A stretch of 25,445 nt of DNA from Holdemanella sp. Its GTDB lineage: Bacteria > Bacillota_I > Bacilli_A > Erysipelotrichales > Erysipelotrichaceae. Below, piece after piece: positions 1 to 25,420 of this stretch. The notes below the pieces were generated by a model that searched no databases, had not been told where the DNA came from, and saw nothing but the letters and a program-made list of their open reading frames with translations. Both the position numbers and the translations under genes were made by a program. The stretch lies in the NCBI GenBank assembly GCA_021442845.1, contig JABUSD010000296.1:1-25445 (forward strand), written 5' to 3'. How positions within the stretch are numbered: position 1 is the stretch's first letter; every line of letters begins with the position of its first letter.

Positions 1-57
<57 letters not shown>

Positions 58-11753: not shown

Positions 11754-12707
11754 TTAATCGTTGTATTCACGATTGCATTTGTAAAGTAGATCTTCCCAGC
11801 GTCTATCAACTTCAGCCTGGAACTGTGCAATCAAGTGTTCATTTCCTGGCTTGAACAAGTGTTTGAAACGACCTTGTGTCTTTAAGAATTCTTCTACAGG
11901 AAGTTTTTTCTTAGGAACATAGTTTAGTTTCCAGCGACCGTGGTCAACTTCAAATAGTGGCCAGTAACAAGTTTCAACAGCTAAGCGGCAGATTTCCATT
12001 ACATCTTCTGTGTTATAACGCCAACCACGTGGACATGGTGCCATTACATTTAAGAAACATGGTCCTTCTGTATAGATACCTTTTTCAGCTTTCATATGGA
12101 TATCTCTAAAATCACGTGTGAATGTAGTCTGTGCTACATAAGCTACATCATGATCTGCAATAATGCTTGCCAGATCTTTACGGTTCTGCATCTTACCATC
12201 TGAACATTTACCTGCTGGTGTTGTTGTTGTATCCGCAAACATAGGAGTAGCGGATGATCTCTGGATACCTGTATTCATATATGCACCGTTGTCATAACAT
12301 ACATAAAGGAAGTCATGACCACGTTCCATTGCACCCGATAATGATTGGAATCCAATATCATATGTACCACCATCTCCACCAAATGTAATGAATTTATAAT
12401 TTACATCGGCAGGAATCTTTCCTTTTTTCTTTAATGCCTTATAAGCTGTTTCAACACCAGAAATAGTAGCCCCTGCATTTTCAAATGCATTATGGATATA
12501 ACTATCTTCCCATGCTGAATATGGGTATGTAAAAGTTGATACTTCCAGACATCCTGTTGCATTTCCAATTACAGCATGATCACCCTGGTGTAAACCACGC
12601 AATACAGCACGTACCGCAATAGTAGCTCCACATCCTGCACACATTCTATGACCAGGCGCTAAACGCTCTGGCTGGTTCATCATTGTTTTTAAGTTAAAAT
12701 TTTGCAT
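11754..12707 (-). CDS. porB: 2-oxoacid:ferredoxin oxidoreductase, beta (TPP-binding) subunit
   Basis: This 317-residue subunit binds thiamine pyrophosphate and a [4Fe-4S] cluster. It carries the cluster cysteines C23 and C26 (HRMCAGCGA), C53 (NATGCLEV) and one near residue 215 (GPCFLNV). The TPP/Mg motif begins FGGDGGTYDIG. With PorA, PorD and PorG it converts a 2-oxoacid plus CoA to acyl-CoA, CO2 and reduced ferredoxin, reversibly. The frame opens at 12713, but AGGAGG is only two bases from that ATG and eight from the ATG at 12707, so the latter is chosen. The porA stop codon lies inside this Shine-Dalgarno site, indicating coupled translation. It is the last gene of the T-box operon. Pyruvate or a branched-chain oxoacid could be the substrate. 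Confidence 0.93.
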   Translation of the reverse strand: MQNFNLKTMMNQPERLAPGHRMCAGCGATIAVRAVLRGLHQGDHAVIGNATGCLEVSTFTYPYSAWEDSYIHNAFENAGATISGVETAYKALKKKGKIPADVNYKFITFGGDGGTYDIGFQSLSGAMERGHDFLYVCYDNGAYMNTGIQRSSATPMFADTTTTPAGKCSDGKMQNRKDLASIIADHDVAYVAQTTFTRDFRDIHMKAEKGIYTEGPCFLNVMAPCPRGWRYNTEDVMEICRLAVETCYWPLFEVDHGRWKLNYVPKKKLPVEEFLKTQGRFKHLFKPGNEHLIAQFQAEVDRRWEDLLYKCNREYND

Positions 12708-12719
12708 GAACATTCCCTC

Positions 12720-13901
12720 CTACTTACGTAATCCAATGTATTGGAACTGTTCAATTTCTGTTCCATTTTCAACTAAATCTTCTAATTGTCCAAAGATGTC
12801 ATATACATCTGTAACAGTAAAGTCACGTCCAGCTAAACCATAGATATAATTTACAGTTTCAACCATAACTTTATTTCTGAACAATCCAGCTATTACTTCC
12901 ATACCTAATGGACCACCATTTGCGTTATAGCTTTCACAACGGTCCATAATCGCTACTGCTTTAGCATTCTTTAATGCTTCTGCAATTTCCTTTGCAGGGA
13001 ATGGTCTAAATACACGAAGTTTTAAAACACCCACTTTTTTACCCTGTGCTCTTAAATCATCAACAGCCTGCTTAGCTGTACCAGCAGCACTACCTATAAT
13101 AACCATAACATAATCGGCATCTTCCATACGGTATTCTTCAAAGAATCCATATTTACGTCCCGATAGCTTTTCAAATTCCTTTGCAACTTCTAAGATGACA
13201 TCTCTTGCGTTTTCCATTGCGATTTCCTGATTCTTTCTTGCTTCCATTGCATAATTAGAAACAGAATAAGGTCCTACAGCGATTGGTTTTCCAACATTCA
13301 ATAAGAATTCTTCTGGTTCATATTCCCCAACAAAATTCTTAACTTCTTCATCTTCTAACAATTCAATATTTTCAACCGCATGTGATGTAATGAATCCATC
13401 CTGACAGATCATGATTGGAAGATGAACATCCTTGTGTTCGGCAATAGGATATGCCTGTACAAAGTTATCATAGGCTTCCTGGTTATTTTCTGAATAAATC
13501 TGAATCCATCCAGTATCTCTTGCACCCATACCATCTGTGTGGTCACAGTTGATATTGATTGGCCCTGACAATGTACGGTTAACAAGGGCTAATGCAAGTG
13601 GCATACGATTAGATGCGGCCAACAACAATTCTTCCCACATAAGGGCAAGACCAGCCGATGAAGTAGCCGTTAAAGAACGAGCTCCTGCAGCTTCTGCACC
13701 AATTGTTGCAGACATGCTTGAGTGTTCACTTTCAACAGGAATGAATTCTGTATCCATCTGTCCATTTGCGATATAGGTAGATACCATCTGAGGAATTTCC
13801 GTTGATGGTGTAATAGGGAATGCAGGCATTACATCCGGGTTAATCTGACGGATTGCATAAGAAACAGCTTCGTTTCCTGACATACGATCTCTTTTAGCCA
13901 T
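12720..13901 (-). CDS. porA: 2-oxoacid:ferredoxin oxidoreductase, alpha subunit
   Basis: The 393-residue alpha subunit supplies the pyrimidine-binding domain of the thiamine site and the C-terminal transketolase-like domain. The segments MSGNEAVSYAIRQINPDVMPAF and FIPVESEHSSMSATIGAEAAGA are diagnostic. TSSAGLALMWEELLLAA and RNQEIAMENA-type stretches also fit PorA/VorA. It begins one base after the porD stop, and its Shine-Dalgarno site GGAGGG lies within the last codons of porD. Gene order gamma-delta-alpha-beta matches the four-subunit POR of Thermotoga. Four-subunit enzymes include pyruvate, 2-ketoisovalerate and 2-oxoglutarate types, and sequence inspection alone does not settle which this is. 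Confidence 0.93.
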   Translation of the reverse strand: MAKRDRMSGNEAVSYAIRQINPDVMPAFPITPSTEIPQMVSTYIANGQMDTEFIPVESEHSSMSATIGAEAAGARSLTATSSAGLALMWEELLLAASNRMPLALALVNRTLSGPININCDHTDGMGARDTGWIQIYSENNQEAYDNFVQAYPIAEHKDVHLPIMICQDGFITSHAVENIELLEDEEVKNFVGEYEPEEFLLNVGKPIAVGPYSVSNYAMEARKNQEIAMENARDVILEVAKEFEKLSGRKYGFFEEYRMEDADYVMVIIGSAAGTAKQAVDDLRAQGKKVGVLKLRVFRPFPAKEIAEALKNAKAVAIMDRCESYNANGGPLGMEVIAGLFRNKVMVETVNYIYGLAGRDFTVTDVYDIFGQLEDLVENGTEIEQFQYIGLRK

Positions 13902-13902
13902 A

Positions 13903-14205
13903 CTATCTTCCCTCCTTCATTTCAATTGCACCAAAAGGACAAGCCTTAGCACAGATTCCACATCCTTTACAGTGGTCATAATCAAAATTTAAACGTTTTG
14001 AGTCAACAACCGGAATGCTTGAATCTGGACATACTGGTGTACATAATAAACATTGTTTACATACATCTGGTTTCCATACTGGAGTATTTGTTCTCCATTC
14101 ACCTGTTTCGAATTCTTTTGTTGTTCCAGCATTGAACAACATCAATCCTTCTGTTAAATCCTGATGAGGTGATTTTTCATTGATTTTACTTACATCTGTT
14201 CTCAT
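13903..14205 (-). CDS. porD: 2-oxoacid:ferredoxin oxidoreductase, delta (ferredoxin-like) subunit
   Basis: The 100-residue protein holds two complete [4Fe-4S] motifs: C49, C52, C55, C59 (CKQCLLCTPVCP) and C79, C82, C85, C89 (CKGCGICAKACP). The delta subunit passes electrons from the thiamine site to external ferredoxin. The N-terminal 48 residues, including FETGEWRTNTPVW, are typical of PorD. It follows porG by nine bases; the porG stop overlaps its AGGAGG site. Confidence 0.93.
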   Translation of the reverse strand: MRTDVSKINEKSPHQDLTEGLMLFNAGTTKEFETGEWRTNTPVWKPDVCKQCLLCTPVCPDSSIPVVDSKRLNFDYDHCKGCGICAKACPFGAIEMKEGR

Positions 14206-14214
14206 AAGCCCCTC

Positions 14215-14790
14215 CTATAGACCTAATGCTTCAAAAGTCATTTTCAAAGCATTCATATTTCCTTCGATAACTTCTGGTTTCTTTGCAAACTTGTGCTCAT
14301 ATGAAGCCTGCATTTCATTGATGAATTCATCTTTAGGCATAACACCACTAACCGCAACAGCTGCTGCAAGCATAGGTGAGTTAGGGAAGTATTTTCCTAA
14401 TGCCTTTACTGAAATCGTACGTGCATCCAATGTGTAAACACGTCCCTTGTATCCATTCAACAATGGCTTGATTTCTTCAACCGGTTTTGGAGAATTGACA
14501 ATAATTGCTCCATCTTCCTTTAGCCCAGCCGTTACATCGACTGCATGTAACAATGTTTCATCTACAACCACAACAAGTTCTGGTGTATAGATGTTTGAAT
14601 GTACACGAATTGGATCGGTACTGATACGGTTGTATGCTGTGATTGGTGCTCCCATTCTTTCTGGACCATATTCTGGGAATCCCTGTACATACTTACCTGT
14701 CTTAAACGCAACATCTGCTAATAGTAATGCTGCTGTCTTAGCACCTTGTCCTCCACGACCGTGCCAACGAATTTCTAAAGTATTTGCCAT
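14215..14790 (-). CDS. porG: 2-oxoacid:ferredoxin oxidoreductase, gamma subunit
   Basis: The 191-residue gamma subunit carries RWHGRGGQGAKTAALLLA near the N-terminus and EYGPERMGAPITAYNRIS, both characteristic of PorG/VorG. This subunit helps form the CoA-binding surface. The frame remains open to 14931, but that stretch is the T-box terminator and antiterminator. AAAGGAGG a few bases before the ATG at 14790 marks the real start. As the first gene of porGDAB, its expression depends on readthrough of the T-box terminator 20 bases upstream. Confidence 0.93.
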   Translation of the reverse strand: MANTLEIRWHGRGGQGAKTAALLLADVAFKTGKYVQGFPEYGPERMGAPITAYNRISTDPIRVHSNIYTPELVVVVDETLLHAVDVTAGLKEDGAIIVNSPKPVEEIKPLLNGYKGRVYTLDARTISVKALGKYFPNSPMLAAAVAVSGVMPKDEFINEMQASYEHKFAKKPEVIEGNMNALKMTFEALGL

Positions 14791-14809
14791 ATAATCCTCC
14801 TTTATGACT

Positions 14810-14843
14810 AAAAAAAATAGTCCCTTCATATATATGAAGAGAC
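14810..14843 (-). terminator. T-box regulated intrinsic terminator
   Basis: On the minus strand GTCTCTTCAT pairs with ATGAAGGGAC (one G-U) around a four-base ATAT loop; TA and then eight T follow. Its 5' arm contains the CTCTT that pairs with AAGAG in the antiterminator, so the two structures exclude each other. Confidence 0.9.
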
Positions 14844-15056
14844 GAATGTATAAATCCGCGGTACCACTCTTATTTATTCTTGCGAATACCCTCATCGATG
14901 CCAACACATCTAGCCACTTTAACGGAAGCAACCGTCTACGCCTACATTATCGGCATAGCCACTCCATGGTGATTTTCAATATATCTTAGCTGACGCCTTT
15001 CACCCAACTAGCATCTCTCTTCTTGAGCAAGCCTATATTTACTCTTCCATATCAAC
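14810..15056 (-). ncRNA. T-box riboswitch leader (probable Ile specifier)
   Basis: The minus strand carries a full T-box leader. Stem I starts near 15050, with the specifier loop formed by AGAGTA on the 5' side and GAAAATCA on the 3' side between helices ATGG/CCAT and AATATA/TATATT. The AG-bulge region AAGAGAGATG and the apical GTTGGGTGAAAGGC follow. The T-box sequence TGGTACCGCGG is at 14856-14866. AAGAG before it can pair with CTCTT to form the antiterminator, which uses the same bases as the terminator's 5' arm. The specifier reads best as ATC (14971-14973, followed by A). The T-box TGGT would pair with an A discriminator, as in tRNA-Ile. The alternative frame AAT (Asn) fits less well, because Asn tRNAs normally carry G there. 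Confidence 0.93.
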
Positions 15057-15061
15057 GTGTT

Positions 15062-15091
15062 TTTATATGTAACATATAATATCACTTTCAA
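15062..15091 (-). promoter_or_regulatory. Promoter of the T-box/por operon
   Basis: Minus strand TTGAAA (15086-15091), an 18-base spacer and TATAAA (15062-15067). Transcription would start near 15055, right at the foot of T-box stem I. I see no terminator between the upstream dehydrogenase gene (ending at 15110) and this promoter, so some readthrough into the leader is possible. Confidence 0.6.
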
Positions 15092-15109
15092 TATTTTTTT
15101 CAAGCGTTT

Positions 15110-22053: not shown

Positions 22054-22728
22054 TTCTATCTCATAGAAGTTCTTATCGAGTTGAATTTCCATCTCTGCAA
22101 AGGGCATGTTTTTGATTTTTGAAATTGCACCTATACTCTTTGTAAGTGCATCTAAATACGATACATCTTCTTCTTTGCATCCATATGCCCAGGCAATCGC
22201 CTCTATGCCATCACTTTCCAGCAGTAATTTATCTAAAGGACATTTTCTACATACTTCATTGACCGCTTCATCTATTTCAATGGATGGACCGATTGTGAAA
22301 TAACATCCTAAATCTATATATTCCTGTATCATTTCCTTACTAGAATGCCAATGAACAATATATGTATTTGGATATTTACAGATATAGGAATATGCTTCTT
22401 TTTCCATTCCCTTTAAATGAAGAATCACAGGTTTATGTAATTTACATGCTAATTTCAACTGCTTTTCAAATATATTTTTTTGAAGTGTTAAATCGGTTGA
22501 ACACCATGTATTATCCAATCCAATTTCACCAATCATATCTGCCTTCTCTAAACAAGGAAGCATTGCATCATACTCTGTACAATCCACATACCATGGGTGA
22601 ATGCCTGCACTTACAATATAATCATATTCTCTTAAACGATTATATTCTTCTGGACTGGATGCATTGACAATCCCTTTTAAGGAATACTTCAATAAAGGAT
22701 CACTCATATGAAAATGAGCATCATGCAT
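22039..22728 (-). CDS. Divergent TatD-family metal-dependent hydrolase in a TPP-riboswitch operon
   Basis: The 229-residue protein has the TatD amidohydrolase-fold metal ligands: H5 and H7 in HDAHFH, E68 in IGEIGLD, H104 in VILHLKG, H126 in VHWHSS, and D173 in LLLESDG. AGIHPWY also fits. It departs from ordinary TatD: HLKG replaces the usual HSR/HCR and HWHSS replaces HCFSG, and it is about 25 residues shorter. GGTG six bases before the ATG at 22728 sets the start, although a GTG lies at 22737. It overlaps the end of the ABC ATPase gene by eight bases, so it is co-translated with the thiamine-precursor transporter. A role in processing the imported pyrimidine is possible; a DNase role is the alternative. 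Confidence 0.87.
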   Translation of the reverse strand: MHDAHFHMSDPLLKYSLKGIVNASSPEEYNRLREYDYIVSAGIHPWYVDCTEYDAMLPCLEKADMIGEIGLDNTWCSTDLTLQKNIFEKQLKLACKLHKPVILHLKGMEKEAYSYICKYPNTYIVHWHSSKEMIQEYIDLGCYFTIGPSIEIDEAVNEVCRKCPLDKLLLESDGIEAIAWAYGCKEEDVSYLDALTKSIGAISKIKNMPFAEMEIQLDKNFYEIEKKTR

Positions 22729-23458
22729 TGTTTTCACCTTTTAATAATTCAAAGATTTCCTTTTTTAATTCGCCCTGGCCAAATAACCAGTCTCTATTTT
22801 TTTCAATAGAGGAAAGATCAATTTCCTTGATAATGCGAGATGGCTTATTGGAAAGAATCAGAATTCGATCTGCCAGATATAAGGCTTCATCAATATCATG
22901 CGTAACCAGTAGATTCGTACGGTTATATTCCTTTCTTAAATTCAATAGCCAATCCTGCATATCATTTCTTGTGATGACATCCAATGCTCCAAAAGGTTCA
23001 TCCAGCAGTAAAATCTCTGCCTTGCATAGAGCCGTTCTTAGAAAGGCTGCTCTTTGTCGCATACCACCGGATAGCTGGGAAGGATATGCATCCTGATAGC
23101 CATCTAAACCAAATCGTTTGAATTCCTGTTTTGCCTGCTCAACGGCTTCTTTTCTATTTCCATTAATCTGTCCATATAGCGTAACATTATCTAGAATCGT
23201 CTTCCATGGAAGCAGCAAATCACTTTGTGGCATATATGAAAAATGATTGCTGATTCCTTTAACTTCTTTATTATCAACTGTTACTATGCAACTATCTGCG
23301 ACTAACAAACCCGCTAATATATTCAGAATTGTTGATTTCCCACATCCACTAGGTCCTAGAATCGCAACAAATTCTCCATCCTTTACATCAAACTCGATAT
23401 GATTCAAAATTAAAGAATTATCAAAGGAAAGGCATAAATCTTTAACTTGTAATTTCAT
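22721..23458 (-). CDS. thiZ: ABC transporter ATPase, thiamine-precursor uptake (ThiZ-like)
   Basis: The 245-residue ATPase has Walker A GPSGCGKST (residues 35-43), the Q-loop at YMPQSDLLLPW, the signature LSGGMRQR (129-136), Walker B LLLDEPFGALD with D153/E154, and switch histidine H187. It groups with nitrate/sulfonate/taurine-type (SsuB/TauB-like) ATPases, as ThiZ does. AGGAG directly abuts the ATG at 23464 but lies six bases from the ATG at 23458, so the inner start is chosen. It energises the permease and lipoprotein encoded just upstream. The operon is headed by a TPP riboswitch, which supports assignment to thiamine-precursor import. Confidence 0.92.
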   Translation of the reverse strand: MKLQVKDLCLSFDNSLILNHIEFDVKDGEFVAILGPSGCGKSTILNILAGLLVADSCIVTVDNKEVKGISNHFSYMPQSDLLLPWKTILDNVTLYGQINGNRKEAVEQAKQEFKRFGLDGYQDAYPSQLSGGMRQRAAFLRTALCKAEILLLDEPFGALDVITRNDMQDWLLNLRKEYNRTNLLVTHDIDEALYLADRILILSNKPSRIIKEIDLSSIEKNRDWLFGQGELKKEIFELLKGENNA

Positions 23459-23467
23459 GAACATCTC

Positions 23468-24472
23468 CTATTTTATAAATTCATTTGTATATTGTTCGCT
23501 TGCCTCGATTGTCTTTGTAATCAATCCATATTCATACATGAAATTTGTATAGTTATCCCATACTTCATCTTTCATAACTCCCCAAGTATCACTATCCTTA
23601 CTGTATTGTTCACTTAGGTATGCTTGTGATTTCTTTAAGAATTCCAGATCAACATCTTTTAAGGCAACATCATGTAAAATTGTCGCTGCATCATCTGGAT
23701 TTGAAATGGCATATTCATATCCTTTTTTAGTTGCAGATATAAATGCTTTGATAGTCTCTGGATCGTTTTTAATCATTTCATCGTTTGTGATGATTAATGG
23801 AGTGTAATAATCCAAGCGTTGATCTAAATCAGAACATGCCATATAATTCAATTCATATCCATCCATCATTCCACGAATAACAGCCCATCCATAGAATTCC
23901 CATTGAATGTTTACTTTATCTTTTCCAGCATCTTTTGAAAGTGATGCAAATCCAGATCCATCTGCACCAACGATTGTCAGTTTTTCAAAATCGGCATTAT
24001 CCTTTTTCATAATGGCTTTAATGACCGCTTCTTCACTAGGTGCACCCCATCCAGCATATGTCTTTCCCTCAAAATCCTTTGGTGTGTTAATATTTGCATC
24101 CTTTAAAGATACAAACCCCGATGTATTATGTTGAATAATTGTCGCAATTGTCTTAATTGGAAGTGGTTCTTCTGCTGTTAATGCATAAGTAACATCTTCC
24201 TGATATCCTACACCAAACTGAGCTGCATTTGTCGCAACCATAGTTGTTGTGGCATTGTCACCAGGTTCTACAATATTCACCTTTAATCCAGCTTCTTCAT
24301 AATACCCTTTCTGCTGGGCTACATAAAATCCTGTATGATTTGTATTTGGTGTATAATCCAGCATCAATGTAACTTCCTTTAATCCTGAAGTTTCTTCTGT
24401 TCCACCTTTTGAGCACGCCATCATAGAAAGGGCAAGTGCACCCGCCAATAATACTTTTCCTACTTTTTTCAT
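23468..24472 (-). CDS. thiY: ABC transporter substrate-binding lipoprotein, pyrimidine-precursor binding (ThiY-like, NMT1/THI5 family)
   Basis: The 334-residue protein has a lipoprotein signal peptide ending LSMMAC with the lipidated C20. An NMT1/THI5-type binding fold follows, opening VTLMLDYTPNTNHTGFYVAQ, the hallmark of HMP/formylaminopyrimidine-binding ThiY proteins. It is anchored outside the membrane and hands the ligand to the permease, whose gene it overlaps by four bases (ATGA). The TPP riboswitch upstream makes a thiamine pyrimidine precursor (HMP or N-formyl-4-amino-5-aminomethyl-2-methylpyrimidine) the likely ligand. A thiamine-independent sulfonate or nitrate ligand would be the alternative for the family at large. 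Confidence 0.93.
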   Translation of the reverse strand: MKKVGKVLLAGALALSMMACSKGGTEETSGLKEVTLMLDYTPNTNHTGFYVAQQKGYYEEAGLKVNIVEPGDNATTTMVATNAAQFGVGYQEDVTYALTAEEPLPIKTIATIIQHNTSGFVSLKDANINTPKDFEGKTYAGWGAPSEEAVIKAIMKKDNADFEKLTIVGADGSGFASLSKDAGKDKVNIQWEFYGWAVIRGMMDGYELNYMACSDLDQRLDYYTPLIITNDEMIKNDPETIKAFISATKKGYEYAISNPDDAATILHDVALKDVDLEFLKKSQAYLSEQYSKDSDTWGVMKDEVWDNYTNFMYEYGLITKTIEASEQYTNEFIK

Positions 24473-25236
24473 TTCTTTTCTCCTTTTTTCTTGCGCAAGT
24501 GAGGGAATGCCAGATACTCAATAAATGTCACAAGCAGGTGAAGCAACAAGCTCCATAAGATAATCATGACAACACAAGCAAATACTTTATCCAGCATATA
24601 ACCATTTTTTACGCGAAGCATGTAATATCCTAACCCCGCTGATGAAGATAACCATTCGCCTACAATAGCCCCGCCAATACAATAGGTAGCACTCACTTTT
24701 AACCCTGAAAATAAGCCTATGGCACCACTTGGAATCTTTACCATCTTATAAATCTGGAATGTATTGGCTCCAAAGCTCTTTAAAAGATTAATCTGATTTA
24801 AGTCCACTTGTCCTAATGCATCGACAAACGATACTACGATGGGAAAAAAGCACATAAAAATGACAATCAAAACTTTAGGGGCTAATCCAAATCCCAGCCA
24901 GATGGAAAATAAGGGTCCTAATACCATAACCGGAACAGTCTGTGTCACAATCAAATGCGGATAGATACTTGTCTTAAATGATTTTGACATATCCATTCCT
25001 ATCGCAATAATGATGGCAAGCACTGTAGAAATCACCAGCCCTATGATTGCTTCCTGTAAGGTTACCATAGAGTGCTGCCATAAAACAGGAAAGTCACTGA
25101 CTATAGCACTAGCAATCTTTGTTGGTGCTGGTAAAATATACAAACTGATTTTAAAGAATCGTACACAGAACTCCCAAACCACCAATGTAATAATCATCAC
25201 CAATACTGGCATCGTATACTTATGTTTGTTTTTCAT
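24469..25236 (-). CDS. thiX: ABC transporter permease, thiamine-precursor uptake (ThiX-like)
   Basis: The 255-residue permease has about six membrane helices. It starts at a periplasm-facing first helix (VLVMIITLVVWEFCVRFF), with PAPTKI following, typical of the SsuC/TauC/ThiX group. The EAA-like loop LKSFGANTFQIYKMVKIPSG couples to the ATPase. GGAGG six bases before the ATG fixes the start. It is the first gene after the TPP riboswitch and terminator, followed by the binding protein (four-base overlap), the ATPase and a TatD-like hydrolase. Confidence 0.93.
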   Translation of the reverse strand: MKNKHKYTMPVLVMIITLVVWEFCVRFFKISLYILPAPTKIASAIVSDFPVLWQHSMVTLQEAIIGLVISTVLAIIIAIGMDMSKSFKTSIYPHLIVTQTVPVMVLGPLFSIWLGFGLAPKVLIVIFMCFFPIVVSFVDALGQVDLNQINLLKSFGANTFQIYKMVKIPSGAIGLFSGLKVSATYCIGGAIVGEWLSSSAGLGYYMLRVKNGYMLDKVFACVVMIILWSLLLHLLVTFIEYLAFPHLRKKKGEKK

Positions 25237-25284: not shown

Positions 25285-25301
25285 ATCGTATATATAATGA
25301 T

Positions 25302-25382
25302 ATGACTCCCTACGCTAGTACTAACTAGATCAGGTCATAAGGGATTGTATTAATACATCTCAGCCTATGGCACCCCTGTCAT
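25302..25382 (-). ncRNA. TPP riboswitch (THI element)
   Basis: The minus strand carries the conserved THI-box segments in order: AGGGGTGCC, GGCTGAGAT, AATCCCTT, GACCTGATCTAGTTAG and TAGCGTAGGGA. Helix P1 is closed by ATGAC (25378-25382) and GTCAT (25302-25306). Binding of thiamine pyrophosphate should stabilise P1 and permit the terminator at 25258-25284 to form, shutting off the transporter operon when thiamine is plentiful. Confidence 0.96.
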
Positions 25383-25420
25383 GACAATTTATTATATGAA
25401 CTTTTCTTTTTACGTAAGAT

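Follow-up and report, generated by a model that had tools for sequence, protein, structure and literature searches.

Genes and signals at the locus

The stretch analysed here (the window) comprises positions 1 to 25,445 of contig JABUSD010000296.1 from Holdemanella sp. (assembly GCA_021442845.1), and the locus of interest lies within 11754..15103 on the minus strand. Four genes there encode a complete subunit set of a 2-oxoacid:ferredoxin oxidoreductase: porG (14215..14790; gamma subunit of 191 aa; TIGR02175, 201 bits), porD (13903..14205; ferredoxin-like delta subunit; TIGR02179, 92.5 bits), porA (12720..13901; alpha subunit), and porB (11754..12713; beta subunit). The gamma and delta subunits score above the cut-offs of their models, and the alpha and beta subunits match the NCBIfam Por models with E-values of 3e-143 and 7e-105, respectively. 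PorA reached 477 bits with PorA_Arch vs 336 bits with the VorA model, PorB reached 351 bits with the PorB model vs 294 bits with the VorB model, and the pyruvate oxidoreductase (POR) structure PDB 9bt4 matched at 300 bits (alpha) and 281 bits (beta, 9bt4_C). Judged by these scores, both subunits appear POR-like rather than VOR-like, at values that fall under the NCBIfam equivalog cut-offs for pyruvate synthase (477 of 550 bits for alpha; 351 of 405 for beta) and under those of the VOR models (336 of 646 and 294 of 405). These values neither place the enzyme cleanly with pyruvate-specific POR nor set it apart from that group.

Immediately upstream of porG, a T-box leader RNA of the isoleucine type (14835..15064, minus strand) was matched over its full length by the Rfam covariance model RF00230 (136 bits, E 1.6e-30), which also covers the Stem I architecture. 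The T-box sequence UGGUACCGCG (14857..14866) was placed by the Rfam alignment, and its UGGU part (14863-14866) suits an A discriminator, which we take to be that of tRNA-Ile, with UGGU presumably pairing with the ACCA end of the uncharged tRNA. At 14820..14843, an intrinsic terminator hairpin with a trailing U run was identified by a separate terminator search and fold, in which one terminator was found vs 0.2 expected in the searched stretch. This terminator and the antiterminator defined by the Rfam alignment have GUCUCUU in common and are, as modelled, mutually exclusive. The sequence-only reading of a complete T-box leader directly before porGDAB is therefore borne out. The mutually exclusive hairpins that it also proposed are supported by the common bases and by the energy fold of the terminator stretch (z -2.62), but not by the fold of the antiterminator stretch (z -0.52); since the latter and the whole-leader fold (z -1.07) were no better than shuffles, they were given no weight. 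A promoter-like TTGAAA-16-TATTAT (15076..15103, minus strand) is a consensus match only, and such sites occur at chance level (2 found vs 1.5 expected).

Comparison of the por leaders revealed an additional hairpin, which in the window has the loop UGUUGG (14897..14910, minus strand). Hairpins with the loop UGWURG and at least four pairs are present in 14 of 16 por leaders, and a similar hairpin is found at a similar place in 4 of 64 other T-boxes, so that it is not an exclusive mark of por. The covariation count, which used 9 rows (7 of them different) out of the 14 that passed, is biased towards structure, because rows were picked for having the stem; leaders L209 and L212, each with a mismatched pair that failed the regular expression, were excluded from it.

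At the other end of the window, positions 1..57 (minus strand) hold the 5' part of a tRNA with the anticodon GAU (Rfam tRNA, 40 bits). The tRNA-Ile(GAT) gene proposed for this place is thus recognizable by its anticodon; however, it is cut by the contig end, received no ARAGORN call, and has its 3' part, including the discriminator position, outside the window.

The isoleucine specifier and its distribution

In other T-boxes of the same genome, the specifier codon lies four nucleotides before an xGGAG-like 5-mer, a rule that in seven of nine cases yields the codon that the downstream gene would predict, with genes and codons assigned by inspection (metG AUG, argG CGU, serS AGC, hisZ CAC, leuS CUU, alaS GCU, and thrS ACU). 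The two exceptions are the hisS leader, which gives GAC, and the asnS leader, which lacks the motif. The same spacing places AUC (Ile) in the Stem I specifier loop of the por leader (14971..14973, minus strand), confirming the frame read earlier as ATC. If the frame were shifted to AAU (Asn) or UCA (Ser), UGGC would presumably be needed in place of UGGU. AUC was also read in the leaders before ileS (assigned by inspection) in three relatives, two of which exceed the gathering score.

A total of 16 porGDAB leaders with a T-box were found in two distant lineages, and all 16 carry AUC. In the erysipelotrichid family, the T-box leader is present in 6 of the 7 por-bearing genomes among 145 sampled, with PorA identity down to 61%. 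Among clostridial relatives with PorA identity of at least 87%, it precedes 10 of 11 full-length loci, the eleventh being cut by its contig, and the covariance model confirms 4 of these 10 leaders. One clostridial carrier has the PorA of S. wolfei, and the carriers very probably include Syntrophomonas wolfei. Specifier, T-box, and terminator are retained although the leaders are only 48-56% alike between groups.

Motif searches found no T-box at any of 80 Lachnospiraceae-type por loci, the best 80 of at least 537, some with incomplete upstream DNA (9 of the 80 with an upstream stretch before porA shorter than 1,300 bases), nor did a scan of 22 of these loci with all Rfam models. The narrower T-box pattern was blind to the TGGTATAGCG form, and a wider pattern over the same 80 loci found none; the sole match of the narrower one, L048, lacks a T-box context. 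Other clostridial por loci gave 0 of 79, again with some upstream DNA incomplete. Here, 90 of 128 matches were examined, the other 38 including the fragment G941 (91% identity over ~180 residues), and the porG motif was out of reach in 18 of 60 and 4 of 30 stretches (L210 among these); a second scan of the 60 stretches covered all of the upstream sequence retrieved for them. No T-box was found at four order-mate por loci with an acetate kinase gene upstream (Pfam on one) or before the por genes of genome G005. These negatives reject the T-box leader as a common trait of all por operons. Most por operons of the same type that were examined have no T-box, an observation that counts against the reductive route proposed below.

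In a quick PorA tree built without bootstrap from 89 rows (87 of 181 extracted PorA sequences and two PDB rows), T-box-bearing por genes occupy at least three places, with at least four label changes; L210, drawn as 'none', was excluded from this count, and the branches of the two PDB rows are long, which makes their placement uncertain. The window and genome G001 of the same genus are not sisters inside the Lachnospiraceae-type clade, with weak support (81), and a fourth place is therefore possible.

Other isoleucine and oxoacid genes

The genome also encodes IlvBNCD and threonine deaminase (ilvA). ilvC is present in all five genomes of the genus and an ilvA homologue in all ten tested genomes (identity 48-100%), which rejects POR as a stand-in for a missing threonine deaminase and leaves no isoleucine gap that would force the por route. 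A NifJ fragment of 501 residues on another contig points to a separate pyruvate oxidoreductase, and POR is therefore unlikely to be the sole such enzyme of the genome; truncation of the fragment at the contig end accounts for its score of 783 bits, below the cut-off of 911. Genes for an acyl-CoA ligase-like protein, butyrate kinase, and phosphotransacetylase adjoin this fragment. With ilvB, ilvC, ilvD, ilvA, and NifJ all represented, the por route would come in addition to the threonine route, not in its place. In G001, the leucine-committing gene leuA is under a T-box reading CUU; por thus occupies the matching isoleucine place.

A proposed reductive route to isoleucine

The isoleucine-specific T-box before por supports control by isoleucine and hence a role in its supply, as far as sequence can tell, and suggests that the enzyme works in reverse as a contribution to isoleucine synthesis in some gut bacteria and syntrophic clostridia. 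When isoleucine is short, uncharged tRNA-Ile(GAU) would bind the leader, pairing through its anticodon with AUC and through its ACCA end with UGGU; antiterminator formation would follow and allow transcription of porGDAB. PorGDAB would use reduced ferredoxin and CO2 to carboxylate an acyl-CoA to a 2-oxoacid for isoleucine, most likely propionyl-CoA to 2-oxobutyrate, which IlvBN, IlvC, IlvD, and a transaminase could convert to isoleucine alongside the threonine deaminase route. The POR-type scores and the NifJ fragment also speak for this scheme. Taken as a whole, the case for it is about evenly balanced in our judgement. The sequence-only reading had already proposed reductive use of the enzyme for isoleucine; its regulatory half is strengthened by AUC in all 16 leaders, while the direction of the reaction is backed by standard T-box logic rather than by chemistry, and 2-methylbutyryl-CoA and propionyl-CoA are both candidate substrates.

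Propionyl-CoA is favoured by the isoleucine-only specifiers and by G005, in which por lies directly behind a methionine gamma-lyase-like gene (score under the lyase cut-off). The product of that gene would be 2-oxobutyrate, an arrangement that could equally mean 2-oxobutyrate catabolism. The 16 isoleucine specifiers also speak against a broad branched-chain enzyme, because valine or leucine specifiers would then be expected at times. More tentatively, PorGDAB under isoleucine T-boxes may be a dedicated 2-oxobutyrate synthase whose pairing with the leader was kept, or made anew, after the enzyme genes were swapped between lineages. The window would exemplify such exchange, having a Lachnospiraceae-type por behind an isoleucine T-box although its source lineage showed no T-box before por.

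The same switch and direction could instead serve 2-methylbutyryl-CoA, carboxylated to 3-methyl-2-oxopentanoate and transaminated straight to isoleucine; a branched fatty acid present in the gut or in a syntrophic community would thereby be scavenged. 2-Methylbutyrate serves methanogens for isoleucine, according to the available part of PMC10658910, the four-gene enzyme of C. sporogenes acts on branched 2-oxoacids and on pyruvate in the available text of PMC13290082, and the genes adjoining the NifJ fragment could activate short acids. However, the alpha and beta scores are closer to POR than to VOR models, ilvB, ilvC, and ilvD are in the genome, and the C. sporogenes enzyme also accepts the valine and leucine oxoacids (PMC13290082, same text), yet every por leader reads isoleucine; we therefore consider this substrate rather unlikely. 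An anabolic pyruvate synthase, for which isoleucine starvation would be a general signal of carbon-skeleton shortage, agrees with the top NCBIfam and PDB matches, all pyruvate enzymes, but pyruvate supplies valine, leucine, and alanine more than isoleucine, which makes the uniform isoleucine specifiers hard to reconcile with it and the explanation improbable.

Least probable is an oxidative enzyme of amino acid fermentation behind a T-box that is a functionless hitchhiker or relic. Assayed gut enzymes of this class serve oxidation (PMC13290082, in the part available) and the por genes of G005 adjoin the lyase-like gene; nevertheless, a T-box would switch an isoleucine-oxidising enzyme in the wrong direction, and a relic is at variance with signals retained in such divergent leaders.

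Carboxylation of propionyl-CoA or 2-methylbutyryl-CoA for isoleucine has long been claimed for anaerobes on biochemical grounds. The available part of PMC7476758 describes the reductive carboxylation of propionyl-CoA to 2-oxobutyrate, citing Buchanan 1969 and Monticello 1984; it doubts that an oxidoreductase is always responsible and names a second possibility, a formate-lyase route that starts from propionate, which counts against the oxidoreductase route. The presence of a tRNA-Ile switch before the genes of one particular four-gene enzyme directs attention to a set of genes for this claim, and Syntrophomonas wolfei offers a cultured organism for testing the role of por. A T-box on such an oxidoreductase was not found in the literature searched, although an earlier report is possible; in two surveys of T-boxes or RNA regulons (PMC3766115 and PMC2494555), a term search of the main text as available returned neither 'ferredoxin' nor 'oxidoreductase'. 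The case also cautions that homology alone is insufficient for labelling an enzyme a fermentative pyruvate or ketoisovalerate oxidoreductase.

Among known systems, the isoleucine-specific ileS leaders (RF00230) have the Stem I motifs, AUC, the UGGU T-box, and the antiterminator and terminator of the por leader, which governs a ferredoxin-dependent oxidoreductase instead. The archaeal-type four-subunit pyruvate synthase PorABDG (PDB 9bt4) has the same subunit set, with alpha and beta homologous over nearly their full length, but the window enzyme has NIN for NIW after the NR..S.P segment, its alpha and beta subunits fall below the equivalog cut-offs, and its operon is under isoleucine control. 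The VOR of C. sporogenes (CLOSPO_00146-00149) is, by its description in the available text of PMC13290082, also a four-gene 2-oxoacid:ferredoxin oxidoreductase of an anaerobe; the role described there is branched-chain amino acid catabolism. A counterpart in the proposed reaction and its purpose is the propionyl-CoA carboxylation of Buchanan 1969 and Monticello 1984, which, in the part of PMC7476758 available, comes without named genes or RNA control, unlike the por operon of the window.

The T-box leader upstream of por

The sequence-only reading had placed a T-box leader before porGDAB (14790-11754, reverse strand), and the covariance-model search it had proposed bears this out: the Rfam model RF00230 matches a full leader at 14835-15064 on the reverse strand (136 bits, E 1.6e-30), followed by porG, porD, porA and porB, all confirmed by NCBIfam. 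Ten T-boxes, nine of them above the cut-off, were found in this genome and used to set the specifier frame. The codon lying four bases 5' of an xGGAG-like motif is the expected one in seven of the nine other T-boxes (metG, argG, serS, hisZ, leuS, alaS and thrS; genes and codons by reading), the exceptions being hisS, which reads GAC, and asnS, which has no motif. At the specifier place of the hisS leader (locus L007, 1501-1695, reverse strand) stands GACAC, in which an Asp codon (GAC) shares its last base with a His codon (CAC). By this rule the por specifier is AUC (14971-14973, reverse strand), the Ile codon originally claimed. The T-box sequence is UGGUACCGCG, whose UGGU fits discriminator A, and the terminator (14820-14843, reverse strand) has bases in common with the modelled antiterminator. 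The tRNA-Ile(GAT) gene reported at the window start stands as to its anticodon, which reads GAU, but is incomplete, being cut off by the contig end.

Distribution and history of por leaders

PorA matches at E <= 1e-80 were found in 7 of the 145 genomes sampled from the window's family, and six of these, from three genera (G000, G001, G058, G114, G022 and G051), have a T-box before porG that passes the Rfam threshold, every one with AUC and UGGU. No T-box was found upstream of por in the seventh, G005, where a methionine gamma-lyase-like gene lies directly upstream (452 bits, where the cut-off is 550). Further upstream (L103, 988-4930) is a PatB/MalY-like aminotransferase gene (by reading), with an oppositely oriented gene between. 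Across the order, PorA is matched in 12/315 genomes, the five new ones being one distant match and four genomes of another family; these four have an acetate kinase-like gene upstream of por (Pfam checked on one), and no T-box was found before por (two of the four tested by covariance model too).

Only one of 398 clostridial genomes, G801, matched a strict pattern of the T-box TGGTACNGCG followed by a porG start. With its PorA as query, matches at E <= 1e-100 were obtained in 128 of the 398, and 90 of these (the 30 closest and 60 further loci) were inspected for leaders. An Ile T-box with specifier AUC precedes porG in ten of the 30 closest loci, L208 among them; none was found in the remaining 19 or in the 60 further loci. 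These ten represent all but one of the 11 full-length matches with PorA identity of at least 87%; the stretch of the eleventh, L210, begins inside the operon, and a fragment at 91% identity, G941, fell outside the 90 inspected. The covariance model, run on four of the ten leaders, matched at E 1e-15 to 1e-19, with two falling short of the gathering score. Among named sequences, those close to the clostridial PorA are mostly from Syntrophomonadaceae, plus Sporotomaculum, and G669 is very probably Syntrophomonas wolfei, since its PorA is identical to that of this species over the length compared. No T-box was found in the best 80 of at least 537 matching loci; in these 80, mostly titled Lachnospiraceae, PorA is 79-89% identical (22 of the 80 scanned with all Rfam models too). 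LysR-type genes that form one cluster (Pfam on one member) lie in the fetched stretch of 50 of the 87 loci compared for neighbours, namely the window, these 80 Lachnospiraceae-type loci and six family loci.

The PorA tree has 89 rows, and those with a T-box occupy at least three places: (i) Syntrophomonads together with G022 and G051 (SH-aLRT 97); (ii) G058 and G114 beside the four T-box-less genomes of the same order; (iii) the window and G001 within a Lachnospiraceae-type clade (100), as non-sisters with weak support. On this tree the T-box label has to change at least four times. Roseburia-type proteins share 89% identity with the window PorA, whereas the pyrophosphatase encoded near por shows about 53% identity to its nearest relatives, apart from a single 74% match, so that por was probably acquired from the Roseburia-type lineage. 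The named relatives of this pyrophosphatase (Dubosiella, Faecalicoccus, Merdibacter and Erysipelotrichaceae) place the genome as an erysipelotrichid. From one group to another the leaders are 48-56% alike, and a hairpin with loop UGWURG, located between the IIA/B element and the T-box core (14897-14910, reverse strand), occurs in 14 of the 16 por leaders (six of the family and ten clostridial) versus 4/64 other T-boxes at a like place; thus, either the leader was kept through exchange of por genes or leader and genes became paired on at least two occasions.

Branched-chain amino acid genes and other regulated loci

The window's genome contains the gene run ilvB-ilvN-ilvC-ilvD-DUF815-ilvA (ilvN from sequence reading only; ilvA runs off the contig), which has no T-box match. 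The DUF815 gene, encoding an AAA-type ATPase (L113, 14158-15354), sits between ilvD and ilvA; in G001 a protein of like size, the only property compared, adjoins ilvA. Within the genus ilvC is present in 5/5 genomes, and an ilvA homologue was found in 10/10 genomes tested. In G001, leuA lies behind a T-box reading CUU (Leu), and leaders before ileS (by reading) in G001, G091 and G005 carry AUC, that of G005 below the gathering score; a scan of the window's assembly that took in T-boxes only found none before ileS. In this genus T-boxes thus stand before a committed Leu gene, before the gene for the Ile tRNA synthetase and before por.

Also encoded in the window's genome are a NifJ fragment, truncated where its contig ends, and IorA, with IorB by reading. 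Beside the NifJ fragment (L106, 1575-7700) are genes for an acyl-CoA ligase domain protein with an extra N-terminal part, a phosphotransacetylase, a butyrate kinase and a synthase that resembles LeuA but scores far under the LeuA cut-offs. T-box cores in relatives (L172, L175, L168 and L180) precede genes for a carbon starvation protein resembling CstA, a BASS-type transporter and substrate-binding proteins of ABC systems, all named by reading. A TPP riboswitch (25290-25387, reverse strand, 78 bits) lies upstream of an ABC transporter (22721-25236, reverse strand; permease, substrate-binding protein and ATPase, by reading), which probably carries a thiamine precursor; a TPP riboswitch is also immediately 5' of a related permease gene in G001.

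Direction and substrate of the enzyme

An uncharged tRNA causes its T-box to raise expression of the downstream gene, and 2-oxoacid:ferredoxin oxidoreductases are reversible. An Ile T-box would fit an enzyme making an Ile precursor and would be the wrong control for one burning the Ile oxoacid; the por enzyme is therefore likely to serve Ile supply through carboxylation. Propionyl-CoA carboxylation to 2-oxobutyrate for Ile is described in PMC7476758, with a formate-lyase route as the alternative, and the propionyl-CoA reaction is favoured by the Ile specifier of all 16 por leaders, by alpha and beta subunits scoring closer to pyruvate than to 2-ketoisovalerate enzyme models, and by the lyase-like gene beside por in G005, whose product would be 2-oxobutyrate. 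Some enzymes of the class depart from sequence-based prediction (PMC13290082), which speaks against a firm call; propionyl-CoA, though favoured, is about as likely as not to be the substrate. Methanogens are described as making Ile from 2-methylbutyrate (PMC10658910), and 2-methylbutyryl-CoA is the less likely candidate here.

T-boxes, the oxidoreductase and the carboxylation reaction are each already known. Their link, a T-box before such an oxidoreductase, did not turn up among the papers listed by full-text searches aimed at it or in term searches within papers, and an earlier mention is possible. The por leader is real, conserved and informative, and extends a known switch to a new class of target.
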